Shown here piece after piece: positions 2,619 to 14,636 of a DNA stretch of 16,201 nt (its first letter is position 1; each line of letters begins with the position of its first letter). The notes below the pieces were generated by a model. It was not told the origin of the DNA, searched no databases, and worked only from the letters and a program-made list of their open reading frames with translations. Source of the DNA: Alphaproteobacteria bacterium. GTDB lineage: Bacteria; Pseudomonadota; Alphaproteobacteria; Puniceispirillales; Puniceispirillaceae. The stretch spans positions 1 to 16,201 of the forward strand of contig JAKMFG010000075.1 in assembly GCA_022425565.1 (NCBI GenBank), given 5' to 3'. The translations under genes were made by a program, and so were the position numbers.

Positions 2619-3530
2619 TTAAAGGCAGGCGGCAATCATCCCGGCGAGCGCCGCGTTGTCGATGATCAGCTGCTTGTTGGCAGCAAGGCTTCGGCCACCG
2701 GACCGGCGCGCGATCTCGGCAAGAAGCCAGGGTGTGGCGGCTGCGCTGGCCGGCGCTTCGTCGATGCAGGAAGCGATCCATTCCTCAATCTCGTCGATCT
2801 CAATGGCGAGATCGGGAGTGACCGGGTTGCAGACAAGGACGGACCCGCCGATGCCGAGTTCGGCCCGGGCGCGCGCCACGGCGGCGATATCCTGCGGGCT
2901 GTCGGCGCGGATATCAACGGCGAGGCCACTATGCCGTGCCCAGAAAGCGGGCATGTCGTCGGTCCGGTATCCGACAAGTGTCACACCCATTGTCTCGAGC
3001 GCCTCGCGTGTACGCGGCAGGTCGAGAATGACCTTCGGGCCGGAGCAGACAACAATCATCGGTGTATGGGCCAGCTCGAACAGATCGGCAGAGACATCCA
3101 TGCTGGCCTCGAAACCGCGATGCACACCGCCGATGCCACCAGTCGCGAACACGTCGATCCCGGCCAGACGCGCCAGAATCATCGTTGTCGATACGGTGGT
3201 TGCGCCAAGCGCCGGCGCGCCAGCCGCCCCGGACAACGCAACCGGCAGGTCGCGGCGCGACAGCTTTTTCACGCCTTCCTGTGTTGCCAGCCTTTCCATT
3301 GCGGCATCATCAAGACCGGCATGCGGCCTGCCATCAATTACCGCAATGGTGGCCGGCTCGGCCCCGGCGGCGCGCACGGCTGCCTCGGCTCCGCGCGCAA
3401 CCTCGATATTCTCAGGGTGGGGCAGGCCATGGCTGATCAGGGTGGATTCCAGCGCCACAATCGGGGTTCCAGCAGCACGTGCCGCGGCAACCGGGGCAGG
3501 ACACACAAAGTCGATCTGGCTGTCTTTCAT
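2619..3530 (-). CDS. psuG: Pseudouridine-5'-phosphate glycosidase
   Basis: PsuG cleaves pseudouridine 5'-phosphate to uracil and ribose 5-phosphate, breaking the C-C glycosidic bond in the cytoplasm. The protein (303 residues from ATG 3530) matches the family along its whole length: VALESTLISHG with the catalytic-type glutamate 28, VKKLSRRDLP with lysine 89, GATTVSTTMILA, the signature VFATGGIGGVHRG near 128-138, DVSADLFEL, VVCSGPKVILDL with lysine 166, and ATPWLLAEIA near the end with the NKQLI..NA segment. The upstream gene psuK ends in TGATG, overlapping this ATG by one base, with GGAG 8 nt before it. A GTG one codon earlier (3533) is an equally possible start. The overlap implies translational coupling to psuK, which supplies the substrate. 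Confidence 0.95.
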   Translation of the reverse strand: MKDSQIDFVCPAPVAAARAAGTPIVALESTLISHGLPHPENIEVARGAEAAVRAAGAEPATIAVIDGRPHAGLDDAAMERLATQEGVKKLSRRDLPVALSGAAGAPALGATTVSTTMILARLAGIDVFATGGIGGVHRGFEASMDVSADLFELAHTPMIVVCSGPKVILDLPRTREALETMGVTLVGYRTDDMPAFWARHSGLAVDIRADSPQDIAAVARARAELGIGGSVLVCNPVTPDLAIEIDEIEEWIASCIDEAPASAAATPWLLAEIARRSGGRSLAANKQLIIDNAALAGMIAACL

Positions 3531-4393
3531 CACTTCTGCTCCGCCTGCCGGCCTGCCGCGAAATCCGCACCGGCGGCAAGGGCCGCTTCGAGATGTGCGG
3601 CAAGCCCGGCGGCTGGGGTTGCTGTCAGTCCCCAGAATAGCGCCGCCGCCATGGCGTCGCCAGCGCCGTTTGCCTGAACAAGCGGCACTGGCGGGGGGGA
3701 CTTCGTCACGCAGTCATCATCCTTTGCAAGCGCCGCCTGACATCCGCCATCACTGACCAGAACCACACCCCCGGGGCGCAGCCGTGCTGCCAGCGCCCGG
3801 GCCATGTCTGCAACCGGCGCGTCGCCGGCAAGAATCGTGGCCTCGCTGCGGTTCAGGACAAGCGCATCGAGCCGTGCAAGGCAGCCTGCCAGCCGCCCGA
3901 CCTTTGCCACCGAGGTCGCTGCAGCGAACACAGGACGTGTCTCCGGCTGTGCCTGACAGATTGCCTGCAGCACCGATTCGGGGAAATTCGCGTCAATGAC
4001 CAGCGGCCCGTCACCAATGATGTTTGCGAGCGCCATCTCTGGCGTCACCTCATCATAGAGACCCATCGAGGCCGCCCCGACAACAAGCTCGCCATCGGCG
4101 GCAACAATTGCCGTATAGCCGGGCACCTCGCCCTCAAGCGGAATCAGGCACGGCTCCACCCCGGCGGCACGAAGCCGTTTATCAAGCGCCGATATTTCAT
4201 CTGCTGGCTGAACACCAGTGAAATGCGCATGGCTGCCATGCACCGCCAGATGGCGCGCGATGTTGGCTGCCACACCTCCGATCCCGATCCGCTGCAAGGC
4301 AGGGTTGGTACGACCCAAAACAGCTTCACCGACAAAATGGAGGTGCCTGTCGAGATGACACCCACCGCAAATATGGAAGACAGGCTTTGTCAT
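3530..4393 (-). CDS. psuK: PfkB-family pseudouridine kinase
   Basis: This 287-residue carbohydrate kinase of the PfkB/ribokinase family is best read as the pseudouridine kinase that makes pseudouridine 5'-phosphate for PsuG. It shows the N-terminal substrate-binding motif GIGGVAANIARHLAVHG at 37-53, the LNRSEA segment at 180-185, and the C-terminal PfkB signature with the anion hole and catalytic aspartate, ANGAGDAMAAAL, at 241-252 (D246). Kinase-family membership is clear from sequence. The pseudouridine specificity rests mainly on the one-base overlap with psuG, the arrangement known for psuK-psuG pairs. ATG 4393 starts 10 nt after the MFS stop codon; no strong ribosome binding site is visible, so coupling to the upstream gene is likely. 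Confidence 0.88.
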   Translation of the reverse strand: MTKPVFHICGGCHLDRHLHFVGEAVLGRTNPALQRIGIGGVAANIARHLAVHGSHAHFTGVQPADEISALDKRLRAAGVEPCLIPLEGEVPGYTAIVAADGELVVGAASMGLYDEVTPEMALANIIGDGPLVIDANFPESVLQAICQAQPETRPVFAAATSVAKVGRLAGCLARLDALVLNRSEATILAGDAPVADMARALAARLRPGGVVLVSDGGCQAALAKDDDCVTKSPPPVPLVQANGAGDAMAAALFWGLTATPAAGLAAHLEAALAAGADFAAGRQAEQK

Positions 4394-5638: not shown

Positions 5639-6592
5639 TCAGCCGCCAAGGAACAGACGCCCGACATCGGGATTCTCGAGCAGCCGGTCACCTTCGCCGG
5701 CGATCGCCGTCTCTCCCGAGACCAGAACATATCCGATGTCAGCAAAGGCGAGGCCTTTCTTGGCATTCTGCTCGACCATGATGATGGTCTTGCCGTCCTT
5801 GCGCTGAAGGTCGTCGAGAATCTCGAACACCATGTCGATGAACCGCGGCTCAAGGCCGATCGACGGCTCGTCCACAAGCAGGACCTTTGGCTGCATCACA
5901 AGTGCCCGCGAGATTTCGAGAAGGCGACGCTCACCCCCTGAGAGAACGCCCGCAGGCTTGTCACGCCGATCCGCAAGGCGGCTGTATTTGTCGAACACTT
6001 CCTCAGCCGCGATCTTCGCCTCGGCAGGCCTGTTCTTCAGAAAACCACCCATCAGCAGATTTTCCTCAACCGTCATCTGCGGGAAAACCGACTTGTCCTG
6101 AAGGATGTATGCAATGCCGGCCTTGGCCAGCTTTTGCGATGGCGTCAGCTTGGTGACGTCCTGCCCCTCGATGACGATGCTGCCGGAAAAGATGTTGGTG
6201 AAACCGAAGATCGAGTGCAGCACGGTCGATTTGCCGGCACCGTTCGGGCCGATCAGGCAGAGCGACTGGCCTTTGCCGATCCGCAGGCTGAAATCATGCA
6301 GGATTTCCATCTTGCCGTAGCCGGCCCGCAGGTTGTTGATCGACAGAAACGCACCGCTATCGGCCAGTGCATCCAGCTCTGACATCTCGGGAGCATTGGC
6401 GGCGATCGAGGCGGCTTCCTTGGCCACCTGATCGACAGACATCACCACATCGACGGAGCCGCTACCATAGCCGCTGACGCCTTTCTTGGCGGCAGCCTTT
6501 TTGGCAGGCGCCTTCTTCACGGCAGTTTTCTTAGCTGCGGTTTTCTTCGCAGGTGACTTCTTTGCCGCCGCTTTCTTTTTCGCCTCGGCCAT
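5639..6592 (-). CDS. livF: LivF-type ABC ATPase with histone-like lysine-rich N-terminal tail
   Basis: This is one of the two ATPases of the HAAT importer. From ATG 6592 it has 317 residues, about 80 more than usual LivF proteins. The ABC core begins near residue 82: Walker A GPNGAGKST 115-123, Q-loop glutamine 165, signature LSGGE 217-221, Walker B VLLVDEP 237-243, and VEQN in place of the switch histidine, which is normal for LivF. The first 37 residues hold 15 lysines, with KK doublets at 6-7, 11-12, 16-17, 21-22, 26-27, 31-32 and 36-37 separated by Ala/Pro/Ser/Thr/Val triplets, as in H1/AlgP-like tails. A Gly/Ser- and then Ala/acidic-rich linker (38-80) follows. livG ends in TGATG, overlapping this ATG, with GGAGG 6 nt upstream, so the tail is expected to be translated. 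A TTG at 6595 is a weaker start. Confidence 0.93.
   Translation of the reverse strand: MAEAKKKAAAKKSPAKKTAAKKTAVKKAPAKKAAAKKGVSGYGSGSVDVVMSVDQVAKEAASIAANAPEMSELDALADSGAFLSINNLRAGYGKMEILHDFSLRIGKGQSLCLIGPNGAGKSTVLHSIFGFTNIFSGSIVIEGQDVTKLTPSQKLAKAGIAYILQDKSVFPQMTVEENLLMGGFLKNRPAEAKIAAEEVFDKYSRLADRRDKPAGVLSGGERRLLEISRALVMQPKVLLVDEPSIGLEPRFIDMVFEILDDLQRKDGKTIIMVEQNAKKGLAFADIGYVLVSGETAIAGEGDRLLENPDVGRLFLGG
6482..6580 (-). repeat. Region encoding seven xxxKK pentapeptide repeats of the LivF tail
   Basis: The codons for residues 5-37 of LivF encode a five-residue (15-bp) repeat of three small residues plus two lysines. Lysine codons (AAA/AAG) and the small-residue codons vary between copies, so the repeat is kept at protein level and is not a fresh DNA slippage product. 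Confidence 0.9.
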
Positions 6593-7338
6593 CAATGTCC
6601 TCCAAGATAGGCGTCGATGACGCGCTGGTCGTTCTGCAGTTCTTCGGGCGCGCCGCTGGCCAGCATGTGGCCATTGGCAAGGCAGTAGATATCCGAAGCC
6701 AGGTTCATGATCACACGCATATTGTGCTCAATCACGCACAGGGTGATCCCCAGCTCCTCATTCGCCCGCTGCAACCTGTCGATCAGGCCGTTGATCAGTG
6801 TCGGGTTGATACCAGCTGTCGGCTCGTCGAGAAGAAGCGCCTTTGGCTCATTCATAAGTGCCATGGCAAATTCCAGCAGCTTTTGCTGCCCGAAAGACAG
6901 ATCGCCCGAGATCAGATTGCGCTTGGAATAGAGCCCGACAAACTCAAGCAGATGCTCAGCCCGGTCGCGAATCTCACCCTTGCGGCTGGCAAACATCGAG
7001 GATTTCGATTCCGCCCTGTGCGAGACCGAAATCTGCATGTTTTCGACGCAGTTCATCTTGCCGTAGATGCGGGTCTGCTGAAAGGTCCGCAACATGCCGA
7101 GACGGGCGATATCACCAACCAGCAGATGCGAGATTTCCTTGCCATCGAACTTGATCGAGCCCTTGTCAATCGGGTGATAGCCAACGATCGAATTGAACAA
7201 TGTGGTCTTGCCACAACCGTTCGGGCCGATGATGCCGGTGATCGAGCCCCGCTTGACCTTAAGCGAGATATCGACATTGGCCTTCACCCCGCCATAGGAC
7301 TTGGAGACATCGTCGACCTGGATAATTGCGTCACTCAT
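6592..7338 (-). CDS. livG: LivG-type ABC ATPase
   Basis: A 248-residue ATPase subunit of the HAAT (branched-chain amino acid/amide type) importer, partner of LivF at the cytoplasmic face of LivH-LivM. Motifs are Walker A GPNGCGKTT 38-46, Q-loop FQQTR near 86-90 (the RTFQQTR region typical of LivG), signature LSFGQQ 147-152, Walker B ALLLDEP 167-173 and switch histidine 205 in IEHN. The ATG overlaps the livM stop by ATGA, with AAGGAGG 7 nt upstream. The usual LivG length and an intact motif set indicate a functional subunit. Confidence 0.94.
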   Translation of the reverse strand: MSDAIIQVDDVSKSYGGVKANVDISLKVKRGSITGIIGPNGCGKTTLFNSIVGYHPIDKGSIKFDGKEISHLLVGDIARLGMLRTFQQTRIYGKMNCVENMQISVSHRAESKSSMFASRKGEIRDRAEHLLEFVGLYSKRNLISGDLSFGQQKLLEFAMALMNEPKALLLDEPTAGINPTLINGLIDRLQRANEELGITLCVIEHNMRVIMNLASDIYCLANGHMLASGAPEELQNDQRVIDAYLGGH

Positions 7339-8399
7339 CGCGCCGCCTCCTTCTCATCACCATCGGCAATGTTCGATGTGTCGACAACGATGCCGAACAG
7401 CTCGGGATATTTGGTCTGCAGCCAGCCCATGATCCCCTGCTGGAAATACACTATATTGACGATCAGGATCAGGCCAAGCGCCACCCACTGAAGGTTCAGC
7501 AGATAGGTCCAGGTAGCTTCCTTGACGACATGGAAAATGATCGCTCCCAGCACTGGGCCCCACAGGGTGCCCTTGCCGCCGAGAAGCGCCATGGCGACCA
7601 TGAAGATTCCAAAGGTCGGGATCGGATAGGCCACTTCCTTGTCGATGAAGCCTGCCATGTTGCCGGCGACCGCACCGATACAGCCCATGAAGAAGGCCGG
7701 AATGGCCCAGCCGATGCGCTTGTAGGCAAGCGTCGGAATGCCCATCGCCTCGGCCTTGTCCTCGTCATCACGGATGGCGTTTGCCGCCAGACCGAACTGG
7801 GTTGAATAGAGCCACCTCAGCAGGAAATGCGACACGATCGTGAAGGCGAAACACAGCATGTAGAAGAAGGTCGACCGGAACTCGATATCACCCGGGAACA
7901 GCGGCATCGAAATGCCCGAAGCCCCGCCCACATAGTTGATGGTGATGGTAATTTCGGCAACGGCAATGGCCAGACCGAGCGAGCCGATCGCGAAATAGGG
8001 CCCGCGTAGTCCGAACATAAATGAACTGAACACCAGCGACAGCAGCAGTCCGACGATGCCTGCAGCCAGAATGCCGAGGCCAAGGCCCCAGAAATATTCA
8101 GCTGCCGTGAATTCCGGCTTGATCGAACCCATCGCCGAGGTGTACTCGCCGACGCCGCCTTCATAGAAGAAGGAGATCTGCACGATCGCGGAGACATACA
8201 TCCCGACCCCGAAGAATGTGATGTTGCCGAGGGAGTTGTATCCCATCTGGCCGCCAAGCGTGTCCCAGGTCGAGGCCATCAGCACCATCATCCACAGATA
8301 GGCAATGGTCAGCGTATATTGCGGGAACAGAATCGGCCCGAAGATACCGAACAACGCAAGTCCGGCGTAGGTCATCATGGTCCTGTTGGTCATGCTCAT
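7335..8399 (-). CDS. livM: LivM-type ABC permease
   Basis: A 354-residue integral membrane subunit of the HAAT importer with roughly nine to ten hydrophobic segments. It shows the family marks GGQMGYNSLG near 49-58, LRGPYFAIGSLGLAIAVAE near 131-149, the GGASGI motif near 158-163, and the ATPase-coupling loop AIRDDEDKAEAMGI at 208-221. The C-terminal 25 residues are hydrophilic. The start overlaps the livH stop by ATGA; AGGTGG lies 4 nt upstream. It should form the channel with LivH. Confidence 0.93.
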   Translation of the reverse strand: MSMTNRTMMTYAGLALFGIFGPILFPQYTLTIAYLWMMVLMASTWDTLGGQMGYNSLGNITFFGVGMYVSAIVQISFFYEGGVGEYTSAMGSIKPEFTAAEYFWGLGLGILAAGIVGLLLSLVFSSFMFGLRGPYFAIGSLGLAIAVAEITITINYVGGASGISMPLFPGDIEFRSTFFYMLCFAFTIVSHFLLRWLYSTQFGLAANAIRDDEDKAEAMGIPTLAYKRIGWAIPAFFMGCIGAVAGNMAGFIDKEVAYPIPTFGIFMVAMALLGGKGTLWGPVLGAIIFHVVKEATWTYLLNLQWVALGLILIVNIVYFQQGIMGWLQTKYPELFGIVVDTSNIADGDEKEAAR

Positions 8400-9301
8400 C
8401 GTACCACCTGCCGGTTACGCCGCATCTGGATCTGGCGATAGATCAGCACCAGCAGCAGGATGCAGACAGGTGCCGCCACCTCATACGCGGTTCCAAGGAT
8501 CGCGCCGGTATATTTCTCAAACAGGCCGATGCCGAAGCCGGCCCCGATCACCGCCGGCAGATTGCCGAGGCCGGCAGCCGTCACGATGGCGAAGGAGCGC
8601 ACCGAATAGGTGATGCCGTAGAACGGCTGGATCACCCAGATGATCGATACGAGAACACCCGCCGCACCACACAGCGCCGCGTTGAAGGCAAAGGTAAAGG
8701 CATAGACCCGGTCGATATCGATGCCGAGAACACGCGCCGCACGCGGGTCCTGCGCCGTGGCGCGGATTGCCTGGCCGGCACGCGAGCGCTTCATGAAAAG
8801 CACCACCGCAACCGCGATCACCCCCGCAAGGACAAGCGTCACAATCTTCGATGAAGGCACGGTAACCATGTTGTCGAAGGCATCATAGACCGGCATTTCC
8901 ATGTCGATCGTCTGCACCTCAGGCCCGAAGATCAGGTTGATCACCTGCTGCAGAAGCAGCGAGAGGCCGAAGGTGGCAAGAAGCGAGACGAACATGTCCT
9001 GATCGATGATGCGCCGGATCATCACCACATAGATGATCCATCCGAAGATGAACATCAGCGGCATGACGATCAGCAGGATCAACACCAGCGGCACATGCAT
9101 CTGATGCAAGGCAAAGGCCAGATATCCGCCCATGATGACGAAGTCACCCTGTGCCAGATTCTTAATATTCATCACACCCCATACAAGGGCCAGACCGTAG
9201 GCGCTGAGCGCAAACACCGCACCAACGAATATGCCGTCCAAAATGACCTGCACATTGATGATGGGCGCCCACACAAACAGCAACTGTAGATTATCCCACA
9301 T
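8396..9301 (-). CDS. livH: LivH-type ABC permease
   Basis: A 301-residue permease subunit with about eight hydrophobic segments. It carries the LivH hallmarks GLALVWGVMNIKNLAQGDFVIMG from residue 36 onward, the LLATFGLSLLLQ stretch near 107-118, and the coupling loop RSRAGQAIRATAQDP at 172-186 followed by ARVLGIDIDRV. ATG 9301 is preceded by AGGAAGGG about 3 nt away. The gene lies 102 nt downstream of livK, beyond a terminator-like hairpin, and overlaps livM by 4 nt. Confidence 0.93.
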   Translation of the reverse strand: MWDNLQLLFVWAPIINVQVILDGIFVGAVFALSAYGLALVWGVMNIKNLAQGDFVIMGGYLAFALHQMHVPLVLILLIVMPLMFIFGWIIYVVMIRRIIDQDMFVSLLATFGLSLLLQQVINLIFGPEVQTIDMEMPVYDAFDNMVTVPSSKIVTLVLAGVIAVAVVLFMKRSRAGQAIRATAQDPRAARVLGIDIDRVYAFTFAFNAALCGAAGVLVSIIWVIQPFYGITYSVRSFAIVTAAGLGNLPAVIGAGFGIGLFEKYTGAILGTAYEVAAPVCILLLVLIYRQIQMRRNRQVVR

Positions 9302-9403: not shown

Positions 9404-10612
9404 TTAGTAGGCCACGTTCCGCGGATGCACCATATCGCCGGCCTTTTCGACCAGACCGTAGGTACCGTCGGCATTGATCTGACGCATGAACATCGGCTTG
9501 GCGATGTTGTTGCCCTGCGCCGAGAACTTGATGTCACCATAGAAGGTTTCCATCTCGACTGCCGAGATCGCGTCACGCAGCTTGTCCTTGTCGAGGCTGT
9601 TGGCTGCCTCGAATGCCTCCTTGAAGACATAGACGGCTGCCGAAGCCTGGGCGGACTGGTACGGGACCGAAGTGTAGGACGGATAGTCGGCCTTAAAGCC
9701 GGCATTCCAGTCAGCGGCCGACCCGAACATCGCGTCGGACTTCGACAGGGTCTCAACCCACTGTGTCGGGCACAGGAAGCCGTTGGCGGTCTTCGGGAAC
9801 TTTTCCTGGACCTTGGCAGCTTCACAGTGCGTCAGTGCGATCATCGGCACATTAACCTTCATCTCGTCGATCTGACGGGCCGCAGTTGCCGCACCCTTCG
9901 AGTGGCCAGAGATGATCAGGGCGTCAGGCTTCAGCGCCTTCACCTTGGTCAGCGTGGTCGACATGTCGGACAGGTCGGCAGGCAGCTGGTCGTCGATGAC
10001 AACCTTCATGCCGTACTCTTTAACCTTGTCCATCACACCGGCGCGAACATCCATCGAGAACGGGTCGCCCTCGAAGGCCAGAGCGATACGAACGCTCTTC
10101 GGGTCGGATGACTTGGCAGCAGCAAAATCTACCGCGGTGGCAAGATACTGCTCGGACGTCGACAGCACTGCGAACAGATACTTGTAACCCTGGGTGAAGA
10201 GCGAACGCGATGCGCCCTCTGCCTCGACCATCGGGACACCGAACTTTTCCGATACAGGCGCAATGGCCTTGGTCATGCCCGAGCTGTACGGCCCAAGCAT
10301 ATATTCGACGCCATCCTGCTGGATCAGACGCTCGGCAAGCTGCGCGCCACGCGCAGGAGTGGACTCATCGTCGTAATACTTAACGGCAAGCTTGTAACTC
10401 TTGCCACCGACCTTCACGCCGCCGGCTTCGTTGATCACCTTCACGGCGTAGTCATAGCCGCGCTGGGTGTGAAGACCGTTGGTGGCATATTTGCCGGTCA
10501 GCGAGATCGACGAGCCGAGTGTGATGGTGTCACCATCAACGCGTGCCAGCGCCGGTGTGGCAAGGGTGACCGCAAGCGCTGCCGCAGCCACGATACCGTG
10601 TTTCATGAACAT
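9404..10612 (-). CDS. livK: HAAT-type periplasmic substrate-binding protein
   Basis: A 402-residue solute-binding protein of the LivK/type I periplasmic fold. It starts with a Sec signal peptide (positive MFMKH, hydrophobic core, ALA cleavage region near residue 23). The mature part opens with the family pattern ITLGSSISLTGKYATNG, then YYDDESTPARGAQLAERLI, GPYSSGMTKAIAPVSEKFGVPMVE and IALAFEGDPFS. Which ligand it binds cannot be told from these motifs; members of this family bind amino acids, urea, amides and aromatic acids. ATG 10612 has GGAGG 7 nt upstream; a second ATG two codons later is too far from it. It is the first gene of the livKHMGF set, and its product delivers substrate to LivH-LivM. 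Confidence 0.93.
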   Translation of the reverse strand: MFMKHGIVAAAALAVTLATPALARVDGDTITLGSSISLTGKYATNGLHTQRGYDYAVKVINEAGGVKVGGKSYKLAVKYYDDESTPARGAQLAERLIQQDGVEYMLGPYSSGMTKAIAPVSEKFGVPMVEAEGASRSLFTQGYKYLFAVLSTSEQYLATAVDFAAAKSSDPKSVRIALAFEGDPFSMDVRAGVMDKVKEYGMKVVIDDQLPADLSDMSTTLTKVKALKPDALIISGHSKGAATAARQIDEMKVNVPMIALTHCEAAKVQEKFPKTANGFLCPTQWVETLSKSDAMFGSAADWNAGFKADYPSYTSVPYQSAQASAAVYVFKEAFEAANSLDKDKLRDAISAVEMETFYGDIKFSAQGNNIAKPMFMRQINADGTYGLVEKAGDMVHPRNVAY

Positions 10613-11683: not shown

Positions 11684-11707
11684 GCTAGACAGGCCGCTAG
11701 ACAGGCC
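11684..11707. repeat. Perfect 12-bp tandem duplication at the end of the TauD-family gene
   Basis: The 12-mer gctagacaggcc occurs twice in a row (11684-11695 and 11696-11707). On the minus strand it duplicates the last three codons and the stop (Arg-Pro-Val-TAG), leaving two in-frame TAG codons 12 nt apart. Confidence 0.9.
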
Positions 11708-12524
11708 GATCACCTTTTAATGTGATTCGGTGAAGCAACCTGCGGTGCCCATGATAGTCGTTCAGCGGATAGTGAAGCGTACACCGGTTGTCCCAGATGG
11801 CGACGTCGCCGACGCGCCAGCTGAGGCGGCACTGGAATTCCGGCAGTATCTGGTGCCGGAACAGATGGGCCAGCAGGCCGGCGCTCTCCTCCTCGGTCCA
11901 TCCGTCAAAACGGATGGCGTGGCCGGGACTGGCATAAAGGGATTTGCGTCCGGTCTCGGGATGCGTTCGCACAACCGGGTGGCTGGCCTGCATGGCATCG
12001 GCATCCACCGCCTTGCCTTTCTCGGCAATGCGGGCGGTACGCGATGCCGCCACCTTGGCCTTGCCGGCCGTGCAGATCACGCGGAGACCGGACAGCGTTT
12101 GCTGCAGCCCGTCCGACAGCCTGTCCCAGGCAAGGTGCTGGTTGGCGAACAACGTGTCACCGCCAATCGGCGGCAACTCGATCGCCTGCAGCATGGTCGC
12201 CATCGGCGGCTTGTCCTGATAGATCGTGTCGGTGTGCCAGACACCACCAAAATTGACGGTTTCGTCCTCGCGTTTCAGCACCGAGGTGATTTCGGGGAAC
12301 CCGTCCAGCCCGTCCAGAAACGGATAGATGTCTGGCTCGCCGATCGCGCGCGCCAACGCCAGCTGACGTTGCGGCGGAAGATTCTGATCCCTTATTACAA
12401 GAAGGTGATGTTCCAGCCAGACTGCCCTGATATCGTCGATCAGCCGGGATTTGAAATCTTCTTTTGCAAGGTCCAGACCCGTGATCTCGGCGCCCATGGC
12501 CGGTGCCAGTGGTGTCACCTTCAC
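11697..12524 (-). CDS. TauD/TfdA-family 2-oxoglutarate Fe(II) dioxygenase, substrate unknown
   Basis: A 275-residue non-heme iron dioxygenase, about the length of E. coli TauD. The iron ligands are H97 and D99 (WHTD) and H251; R262 corresponds to the 2-oxoglutarate arginine and R266 to TauD R270. However, aligned to E. coli TauD, the taurine-contacting positions H70, Y73 and N95 are Tyr67, Leu70 and Gly93 here, so taurine is an unlikely substrate. The reaction is oxidative hydroxylation coupled to 2-oxoglutarate decarboxylation; another sulfonate, a sulfate ester or a different acid is possible. The start is GTG 12524 with GGAGGGG 6 nt upstream, and the N-terminal VTPLAPAMGAEITGLDL matches the family start. 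It is divergent from xsc and followed by a DMT transporter gene. Confidence 0.88.
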   Translation of the reverse strand: MKVTPLAPAMGAEITGLDLAKEDFKSRLIDDIRAVWLEHHLLVIRDQNLPPQRQLALARAIGEPDIYPFLDGLDGFPEITSVLKREDETVNFGGVWHTDTIYQDKPPMATMLQAIELPPIGGDTLFANQHLAWDRLSDGLQQTLSGLRVICTAGKAKVAASRTARIAEKGKAVDADAMQASHPVVRTHPETGRKSLYASPGHAIRFDGWTEEESAGLLAHLFRHQILPEFQCRLSWRVGDVAIWDNRCTLHYPLNDYHGHRRLLHRITLKGDRPV

Positions 12525-12596
12525 CCGTCACCCCTCCGTCAAATAAGGTGCATTGCCTTGCCGGAACACCCGGCTTGTTCATGACGCTATCTTGAA

Positions 12597-12663
12597 GGCT
12601 GGCGTGACGCAACAATGTGGGCATGGCCATACCGGCGGCACGCCCGCAGGCCGGCGTGACACA
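12597..12663. repeat. Two direct repeats GGCYGGCGTGACRCA in the divergent region
   Basis: Copies lie at 12597-12611 and 12649-12663, with 13 of 15 positions identical and start-to-start spacing of 52 bp, close to five helical turns. The placement between two divergent genes suggests operator use. The binding protein is unknown. Confidence 0.6.
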
Positions 12664-12697
12664 GGGCGACATTTAGCGTCAGTGACAGCCGACAGGT

Positions 12698-12729
12698 CTG
12701 GACCTAGTTTTACGCTGATCTGGCTCTAA
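12698..12729 (+). promoter_or_regulatory. Candidate TauR/MocR-type operator upstream of xsc
   Basis: CTGGACCTAG (12698-12707) and CTGGCTCTAA (12720-12729) share the pattern CTGGnnCTAR and start 22 bp apart, about two turns, so they would lie on the same DNA face. MocR-family activators bind direct repeats, and as I recall the R. capsulatus TauR site is a CTGGAC-YTAA-like repeat. The position just upstream of an AT-rich possible -10 fits an activator. The assignment is inference. Confidence 0.45.
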
Positions 12730-12768
12730 TGCCAGCCGCCATAGCCTGCGATTTATTACGCAAGGTCT

Positions 12769-12788
12769 GCGCTGGCTGTTGCCAGCGC
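12769..12788. repeat. Perfect 8-bp inverted repeat in the xsc leader
   Basis: GCGCTGGC and GCCAGCGC flank a TGTT spacer, 66 nt before the xsc start. It could be a protein-binding dyad or, if transcribed, a stable small hairpin in the 5' leader. It is not followed by a T-run, so it is not a terminator. Confidence 0.55.
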
Positions 12789-12854
12789 CACGCAGAATAC
12801 CGTGTGCGACCGCACCAACATGAACAAGACGCTCTTGTGGAAGGATGACGCATC

Positions 12855-14636
12855 ATGAAGATGACGACAGAAGAGGCTTTCGTTAAGGTCCTGCAGATGC
12901 ATGGCATCGAGCATGCCTTTGGTATTATCGGTTCGGCGATGATGCCCATTTCCGACCTGTTCCCGCAGGCTGGCATCACCTTCTGGGACGCGGCACATGA
13001 GTGCAACGCCGGCATGATGGCCGACGGCTTTACCCGCTCCACCGGCAAAATGTCGATGATGGTTGCCCAGAACGGTCCGGGCATCACCAATTTCGTGACA
13101 CCGGTCAAGACCGCTTACTGGAACCACACCCCGCTGCTGCTGGTCACGCCGCAGGCGGCCAACAAGACCATCGGTCAGGGCGGCTTCCAGGAAGTCGAGC
13201 AGATGGCTCTGTTCAAGGACATGGTTGCCTATCAGGAAGAGGTTCGCGATCCGGCCCGCATCGCCGAGACGCTGAACCGTGTGATCCTGCAAGCCAAGCG
13301 CGCCTCGGCCCCGGCCCAGATTAATGTGCCGCGCGACTTCTGGACCCAGGTTATCGATATCGAGCTTCCGGCAATCGTCGAGTTCGAGCGCCCGACAGGT
13401 GGTGAAGACGCCATCGAGGCCGCCGCGAAGATGCTGTCCGAGGCGGAATTCCCGGTCATGCTGAACGGTGCCGGCGTCGTCATCGGCGGTGCCATCGGCG
13501 AATCGATGAAACTGGCCGAGCGTCTCGACGCTCCGGTCTGCTGTGGCTACCAGCATAATGACGCCTTCCCGGGTTCGCACCCGCTGTTCGCCGGCCCGCT
13601 CGGCTATAACGGCTCGAAGGCCGGCATGGAGCTGATTACCAAGGCCGATGTCGTGCTGGCACTCGGCACACGCCTGAATCCGTTCTCGACCCTGCCGGGC
13701 TACGGCATCGACTACTGGCCGAAGAACGCCAAGATCATTCAGGTCGATATCAACCCTGATCGGATCGGCCTTACAAAGCCGGTGACCGTCGGCATCGTCG
13801 GCGACGCCAAGAAGGTGGCTGCAAGCCTGCTTGAGAAACTCGGCCCAAATGCCGGGGATACCGGCCGCGCCACCCGCAAGGAGGTCATCGCGACCACCAA
13901 GTCGGCCTGGGCTCAGGAGCTGACATCGATGGACCATGAGGACGACGATCCGGGCACGACCTGGAACGAGCGCGCCCGCACCCGGGAGCCAAAGAAGATG
14001 TCGCCGCGCATGGCATGGCGTGCAATCCAGAGCGCGCTTCCGAAAGAAGCCATCATCTCGTCCGACATCGGCAACAACTGCGCCATCGGCAACGCCTACC
14101 CGACCTTCGAGGAAGGCCGTAAATATCTTGCCCCCGGCCTGTTCGGCCCGTGCGGCTACGGCCTGCCTTCGATCATGGGTGCGAAGATTGGCCGCCCGGA
14201 CCTGCCGGTTGTCGGCTTCGCCGGTGACGGCGCCTTCGGCATCTCGATGAACGAAATGTCGGCTGTCGGTCGCAACGAATGGCCGCCGATCACGATGATC
14301 ATCTTCCGCAACTATCAGTGGGGCGCCGAGAAGCGCAACACCACCCTGTGGTTCGATGACAATTTCGTCGGCACCGAGCTTGACGACAATGTCTCCTATG
14401 CCGGCATCGCCAAGGCCTGTGGCCTCGAGGGTGTTGCCGTCTTCGGCATGGACGAGCTGACCGACGCGCTGAACACCGCCATCGACGCGCAGATGAAGAA
14501 CGGCAAGACCACCTTCATCGAGGTGATGCTGAACCAGGAGCTTGGTGAGCCTTTCCGCCGCGATGCGATGAAGAAGCCGGTTTCGGTGGCTGGCATCAGC
14601 CGCGACGACATGCGCCCGCAGGAACTGGTATCCTAG
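12855..14636 (+). CDS. xsc: Sulfoacetaldehyde acetyltransferase
   Basis: Xsc is a ThDP-dependent enzyme that converts sulfoacetaldehyde and phosphate to acetyl phosphate and sulfite, the desulfonation step at which C2-sulfonate pathways (taurine, isethionate, sulfoacetate) converge. The 593-residue protein begins MKMTTEEAFVKVLQMHGIEH, essentially the roseobacter Xsc N-terminus. Glu49 in AHECNAG is the ThDP-activating glutamate, and the cofactor motif GDG (457-459) is followed by exactly 26 residues and Asn486. Length is typical for Xsc. ATG 12855 has AAGGA 9 nt upstream. The gene is followed by a strong terminator, so it seems monocistronic; the phosphate acetyltransferase (pta) that often follows xsc is absent here, as are taurine aminotransferase or dehydrogenase genes. 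Confidence 0.97.
   Translation: MKMTTEEAFVKVLQMHGIEHAFGIIGSAMMPISDLFPQAGITFWDAAHECNAGMMADGFTRSTGKMSMMVAQNGPGITNFVTPVKTAYWNHTPLLLVTPQAANKTIGQGGFQEVEQMALFKDMVAYQEEVRDPARIAETLNRVILQAKRASAPAQINVPRDFWTQVIDIELPAIVEFERPTGGEDAIEAAAKMLSEAEFPVMLNGAGVVIGGAIGESMKLAERLDAPVCCGYQHNDAFPGSHPLFAGPLGYNGSKAGMELITKADVVLALGTRLNPFSTLPGYGIDYWPKNAKIIQVDINPDRIGLTKPVTVGIVGDAKKVAASLLEKLGPNAGDTGRATRKEVIATTKSAWAQELTSMDHEDDDPGTTWNERARTREPKKMSPRMAWRAIQSALPKEAIISSDIGNNCAIGNAYPTFEEGRKYLAPGLFGPCGYGLPSIMGAKIGRPDLPVVGFAGDGAFGISMNEMSAVGRNEWPPITMIIFRNYQWGAEKRNTTLWFDDNFVGTELDDNVSYAGIAKACGLEGVAVFGMDELTDALNTAIDAQMKNGKTTFIEVMLNQELGEPFRRDAMKKPVSVAGISRDDMRPQELVS

Follow-up and report, generated by a model that had tools for sequence, protein, structure and literature searches.

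A lysine- and alanine-rich N-terminal tail on the LivF-like ATPase of an alphaproteobacterial importer

What is a run of evenly spaced lysine doublets doing at the N-terminus of an importer ATPase? The question is raised by livF in the 16,201-nucleotide stretch of DNA from a marine alphaproteobacterium analysed here (the window), whose product begins with 40 residues that are 38% lysine and 35% alanine. The tail was first seen in a preliminary description made from the sequence, and as an observation it stands. No strand was given there; the gene runs along the minus strand (6592-5639), and the forward-strand frame at the same coordinates contains stops.

The livF gene, its neighbours and a conserved N-terminal segment

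The livF open reading frame (5639..6592, minus strand) encodes a 317-residue ABC ATPase. As first described, a normal LivF ABC domain follows the N-terminal region. The nucleotide-binding domain occupies residues 81-317 plus the stop codon (5639..6352, minus strand), and ABC_tran (PF00005), the family that defines this domain in a HAAT LivF, spans residues 98-243 with 108.6 bits against a cut-off of 25. The best match, the NCBIfam LivF equivalog PRK11614, scores 202 bits with a cut-off of 441, and judged by sequence the protein is LivF-like, not the LivF equivalog. The operon has the other components of a HAAT importer, all on the minus strand: the LivG ATPase (6592..7338), the two BPD_transp_2 permeases LivM (7335..8399) and LivH (8396..9301), and a Peripla_BP_6 substrate-binding protein (9404..10612) which, among solved structures, is nearest by sequence to urea-type binding proteins.

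Downstream of the transporter are genes for an MFS protein, a PfkB-type kinase and a PsuG-like (Indigoidine_A) protein. The PsuG-like and pseudouridine-kinase-like PfkB genes (2619-4393) are likely a pseudouridine breakdown pair. It had been thought suggestive that the operon also handles a nucleoside. However, PsuG and PfkB each occur in only 4 of the 67 relatives with 3.5 kb of downstream sequence, and on the tree the four PsuG-bearing loci all fall within the window's closest clade, and we rejected a nucleoside operon as the cause of the tail. On the other side, genes for a TauD-like dioxygenase (231.6 bits, below the NCBIfam cut-off of 313) and sulfoacetaldehyde acetyltransferase (Xsc; 938 bits, above the cut-off of 676) lie beside the transporter at 11697-14636. 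Among the relatives with 5.5 kb upstream of livF, 11 of 55 have TauD and 4 of 55 have Xsc; these neighbours point to organosulfonates as possible substrates. The window also holds a perfect 15-bp tandem repeat of 2.4 copies at 282-317.

The claim that the livF initiation site is well supported was confirmed. A GGAGG Shine-Dalgarno sequence within the end of livG and a stop/start overlap, TGATG, are found at 6592..6603 on the minus strand; GGAGG precedes the ATG by 6 nt, and one base is common to the livG stop and the livF start. Both features are present in each of the 31 tailed proteins with a complete start in the window's clade (defined below). Across the 82 distinct complete starts, the one-base overlap occurs in 63, including 33 of the 36 complete K-rich ones, and GGAGG in 35. 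The rule for picking a start took whichever in-frame one lay closest to the livG stop, so that "in frame" is true by construction for these 82. One K-rich tail (L048) has its reading frame broken inside the tail and another (L036) is without a readable start, defects in which error and decay are indistinguishable.

Between the tail and the core is a conserved segment, GYGxGxVDxVxSVDxVxxxAxxIA...LxxL, which runs into the core AGYG (residues 41-90; 6323..6472, minus strand). Part of it had been read as a 43-residue Gly/Ser and Ala-rich linker, but it is neither low-complexity filler nor a spacer: from GYG (residue 41) to the core AGYG (residue 90) the segment measures 48-49 residues in 89 of 90 distinct relatives, tailed or not, the motif search having failed in the remaining one (L107). 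Six residues, G41, Y42, G45, V47, S52 and V53, are invariant in 71 sequences. Helices were modelled at residues 53-64 and 70-76, and two helices were modelled in a tail-less relative too; in the structure comparison, residues 1-78 give no information. Because the GYGxGxVD end is invariant in the alignment yet of low confidence in the model of LivF alone, we infer that it probably docks on a partner subunit. The segment (residues 41-89) marks this LivF subfamily. In the LivF proteins of three genomes of 1.2-1.3 Mb (L200, L202 and L203) the GYG half is absent and the second helix region is apparently kept.

Composition, selection and distribution of the tail

The tail (residues 1-40; 6473..6592, minus strand) has a net charge of +14. 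The residue counts reported at the outset were exact: 15 lysines fall within residues 1-37, and KK doublets at 6-7, 11-12 and onward to 36-37 make seven consecutive doublets with a period of five. The longest period-5 run of KK in 200,000 residue shuffles was five and the observed seven was reached by none (0/200,000), which rules out chance as the source of the periodicity. Over 36 complete tails, KK spacing equals 5 in 125 of 252 successive spacings, compared with 8% in shuffles. The lysine content of residues 1-40 (38%) also places the tail among lysine-rich low-complexity regions at the PMC6821194 threshold of at least 30% Lys. The doublets are encoded variously as AAA AAG, AAG AAG or AAG AAA, and thus simple copying of a single DNA unit does not explain the repeat.

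Structure models were read for confidence and secondary structure. The pLDDT is 46-51 across blocks of residues 1-40, and on these predictions we take the tail to be disordered. The helical moment of the window's tail (0.22) is not above that of shuffles (mean 0.35), ruling out an amphipathic membrane helix and indicating that charge is what counts. Given no amphipathic face and low model confidence, the conserved property is a length-tolerant positive charge.

To analyze selection on the tail we used 12 close pairs of relatives, in which two proteins were used twice. Pooled over the pairs, pN and pS are 0.095 and 0.446 for the tail, and 0.028 and 0.401 for the core. Alignment of repetitive sequence favours matches and so lowers dN in gapped pairs; the two pairs without an alignment gap are free of this bias, and their tail dN/dS values are 0.10 and 0.26. 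At aligned tail positions lysine is conserved in 238 of 271 cases and other residues in 392 of 491. Total gaps are 0 in the two ungapped pairs, 5, 5, 10, 15 and 20 residues in five of the twelve, and 4, 7, 11, 12 and 28 in the other five. The synonymous variation between repeat units noted earlier is real, as the codons above illustrate, and its reading as upkeep at the protein level is borne out by the tail dN/dS; the tail is under purifying selection in the close pairs. From these counts, the tail appears to be translated and maintained as a basic peptide, though under looser constraint than the core.

Base composition does not account for the lysines in a simple way. The clade loci with short starts are the AT-rich ones, with a mean GC of 0.40 (n = 7) versus 0.50 for tailed loci (n = 31; p 0.0004, uncorrected for kinship), so that AT bias does not by itself explain the lysine. 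Among the tailed loci, however, charge rises as GC falls (rho -0.43).

The search of homologues, mapped on a tree with operon context, showed the tail to be common to most of one clade. Scoring of 86 proteins gave 40 with a K/R-rich tail, 45 that start short and one with a tail of another kind; four were unscored (L051, L065, L090 and L104), and the K-rich state was set by hand for L032, L036, L048 and L082, in which the start is broken or cut off. The window's clade (SH-aLRT 98) has a K-rich tail in 34 of 43 proteins and a short start of 8-22 residues in 7, with 2 unscored. We use the name SAR116-type for this clade on the strength of several records in it that bear the title SAR116 cluster or Candidatus Puniceispirillum; others there read Rhodobacteraceae, Paracoccaceae, Rhodospirillaceae or SAR324, and the name is tentative. 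Outside the clade, 45 scored rows include 6 K/R-rich tails, all in records titled as alphaproteobacterial groups, and 38 short starts. Thus, with short starts in 7 clade proteins and 38 of 45 outside rows, the tail is unnecessary for this transporter in general. The residues before GYG range from 4 (L188) to 179 (L098), and among the 36 complete K-rich tails 29 lengths occur, between 32 and 179 residues. On the tree, tail state changes at least eight times, three of these forced by well-supported branches; the tree is of a quick type in which 35 of 87 inner branches are weakly supported and gain and loss are indistinguishable.

The 80 loci of relatives are best matches and not a random sample. 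Even sampling of the class gave the subfamily in 33 of 385 genomes (E 1e-90 or better). Five of the 33 are the window's genome and members of its family, with K tails; none of the 25 read among the other 28 (3 were not fetched) has a K-rich N-terminus. The statement that known LivF proteins lack such a tail fails for the orthologues of the clade, most of which have one, and other proteins of related genomes carry such tails too. It fits the paralogues, whose matches, among those listed, all start at residue 63 or later.

Candidate roles of the tail

We favour, at a probability of roughly 40%, a reading in which the disordered K/A polycation acts as a soft, non-specific electrostatic tether holding the LivF ATPase to a nearby polyanion. 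The LivF of this HAAT-type (LivHMGF) importer would then bear two N-terminal additions. The inner one (residues 41-89) would be the fixed-length segment that probably docks on a partner subunit, and the outer one (residues 1-40) would be a K/A-rich polycation, translated and disordered, of the AKK kind that related genomes place on ribosome- and membrane-associated proteins as well. Anionic inner-leaflet lipids would be the nearest candidate for the polyanion, and RNA the next. This reading builds on the translation signals, purifying selection, lineage distribution, low model confidence and absence of a helical amphipathic face; disorder in the cell, binding by the tail and the target of that binding are what we infer. 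Since the permeases should already hold LivF at the membrane, the tether may be superfluous, and a soft spacer without a partner is nearly as likely.

Several of these observations would also fit a somewhat unlikely explanation, that the N-terminus is permissive and the tail a low-complexity expansion tolerated there, with no specific partner, growing and shrinking largely by five-residue units while selection keeps it only soluble and basic. Tolerance of this sort would account for the 29 length values (32-179) in 36 tails, the multiples of five among the total gaps of the close pairs (5, 5, 10, 15 and 20 residues, in 5 of 12) and the eight or more state changes on the tree, and for the occupation of the same site by a helix-hairpin-helix unit in a Hyphomicrobiales MAG (L111). 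However, lysine is better conserved than the other residues and dN/dS lies well under 1, K/R-rich tails occur again in six rows outside the clade, and the AT-rich short-start loci of the clade (uncorrected for kinship) are the opposite of what an AT-driven gain of lysine would predict.

AKK tails on other proteins bear on both the tether and a further alternative. A search with the Pfam HC2 model (E 0.001 or better) matched in 22 of 37 related genomes, one over the cut-off, and in 1 of 14 controls, none over it. The search returned 30 loci, five of which are LivF; nine others checked with Pfam were trigger factor, L21 (two), DUF502 (two), TopA, TatA, MurJ and one protein without a match. The AKK tails of TatA and MurJ were seen in one genome each and that of DUF502 in several. 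In genomes of the window's order (L122, L144, L150, L141, L124, L131 and L145), AKK-rich tails are C-terminal on DUF502 (over the HC2 cut-off in L122), TatA, MurJ, TopA, trigger factor and L21. The LivF tail thus belongs to a type of basic low-complexity appendage that is common in the lineage, and is not a histone homologue.

The C-terminal tail of L21 is basic in all 25 clade genomes measured (net +3 in one, +7 to +22 in 24), including the 7 in which the LivF start is short, while three outside genomes have 2-4 residues at the tail position. Because the L21 tail is basic even where the LivF start is short, the two are uncoupled. Indeed, among 30 hand-chosen genomes, 2 of them without an L21 match, LivF tail charge did not track L21 tail charge (rho -0.10, n = 28); as the charges do not correlate, no target common to the two tails is indicated. 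Within genomes, tail DNA showed no likeness beyond amino-acid demand in 7 of 8 comparisons, the exception being the LivF tail and trigger factor of G002, whose likeness was reached by only 0.015 of reshuffles. Thus we rejected the LivF tail as a recent DNA copy of an L21 or trigger-factor tail, and the likeness among tails is at the protein level. The helix-hairpin-helix unit in the L111 LivF tail (L111:5716-6057) has a related counterpart at the C-terminal end of L21 in a clade MAG, L176 (E 7e-14, with low-complexity masking); Pfam gives only sub-threshold HhH matches here.

That the tail binds nucleic acid or ribosomes, and thereby links the nucleoid or ribosome with the transporter or the polysome translating it, is in our view unlikely. 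Similar tails on L21, trigger factor and TopA speak for it, as do the kinship of the L111 and L176 units and, in PMC6821194, the link of K-rich low-complexity regions (LCRs) to nucleic-acid binding, with 34 of 45 bacterial L21 LCRs above 30% Lys. Such tails are also found on the membrane proteins TatA, MurJ and DUF502, however, the basic L21 tail persists where the LivF start is short, and the gene context has no pointer to a nucleoid link.

It is quite unlikely that the tail docks on acidic patches of LivG or LivM and so tunes ATPase activity. In the clade, LivG has a net charge of -0.9 in tailed loci (n = 31) versus +4.9 in short ones (n = 7), and the LivF core -6.7 (n = 34) versus -1.3 (n = 7); outside it, LivG is at -5.4 with a tail (n = 5) versus -3.1 without (n = 38; p 0.055). 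The C-terminal 40 residues of LivG differ as well (-2.1 versus -0.3). The difference, however, affects whole proteins and goes with GC, which led us to reject an acidic LivG end as the partner, and LivM ends do not differ (three of them, in L019, L021 and L022, were misread). Because the LivF core reverses outside the clade (-8.0 with a tail versus -10.8 without) and only three supported independent pairs exist, we make no claim on acidic partners.

Of comparably low probability is a broader reading in which AKK tails form a common addressing code in SAR116-type bacteria for L21, trigger factor, TatA, MurJ, DUF502 and the importer ATPase. If true, translation and transport machinery would be gathered at the inner membrane of these small cells.

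Finally, a start near residue 51-70 that leaves the tail unmade is very improbable: in-frame ATG codons do occur at residues 51 and 70, but neither is preceded by a GGAGG-like site by eye, the residue-1 start has GGAGG and couples to livG, as in the tailed clade members with a complete start, codon-level selection acts on the tail, and the GYG motif upstream of residue 51 is invariant in 71 sequences, so that the tail as untranslated DNA was rejected.

Comparison with known systems

Set beside the HAAT-family LivF (LivFGHM), the protein differs in its additional conserved 41-89 segment and K/A tail, and falls below the NCBIfam LivF cut-off. The likening of the tail to histone H1 comes down to composition: it resembles the histone H1-like HC2 (PF07382) in this and in AKK spacing, but at 24.6 bits over residues 4-40 it is below the gathering cut-off of 40 bits. 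AlgP, the other likeness proposed, has basic A/K/P repeats. Pentapeptide repeat proteins, whose family we take to be PF00805, are not among the four Pfam families matched at E 0.001.

The feature itself is true and well conserved; its kind is already known on other proteins, and in the open-access literature, across titles and the first lines of abstracts, we found no description of a lysine tail on LivF or any ABC importer ATPase. The main text of PMC6821194 does not contain the word "transporter"; in its passages on low-complexity regions, lysine-rich ones are reported in topoisomerases. In the relevant portions of that paper and of PMC5676037, basic lysine tails are discussed for DNA and RNA binding, and a tail on an importer ATPase raises the question whether these tails serve some general electrostatic purpose beyond nucleic-acid biology. 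The clade offers natural tail-plus and short-start orthologues, and the fixed segment under the tail marks a LivF subfamily with a directly testable partner contact.

As far as the same portions of PMC6821194 and PMC5676037 describe them, the tails of bacterial L21, TopA, HupB and Ku are likewise Lys-rich and basic with KK motifs, and in PMC5676037 HupB binds DNA less strongly once its PAKK/KAAK tail is lost. The HupB tail is C-terminal and acts on DNA, and the ribosomal LCRs in those parts of PMC6821194 are mostly C-terminal, whereas the LivF tail is N-terminal and belongs to a transporter ATPase.
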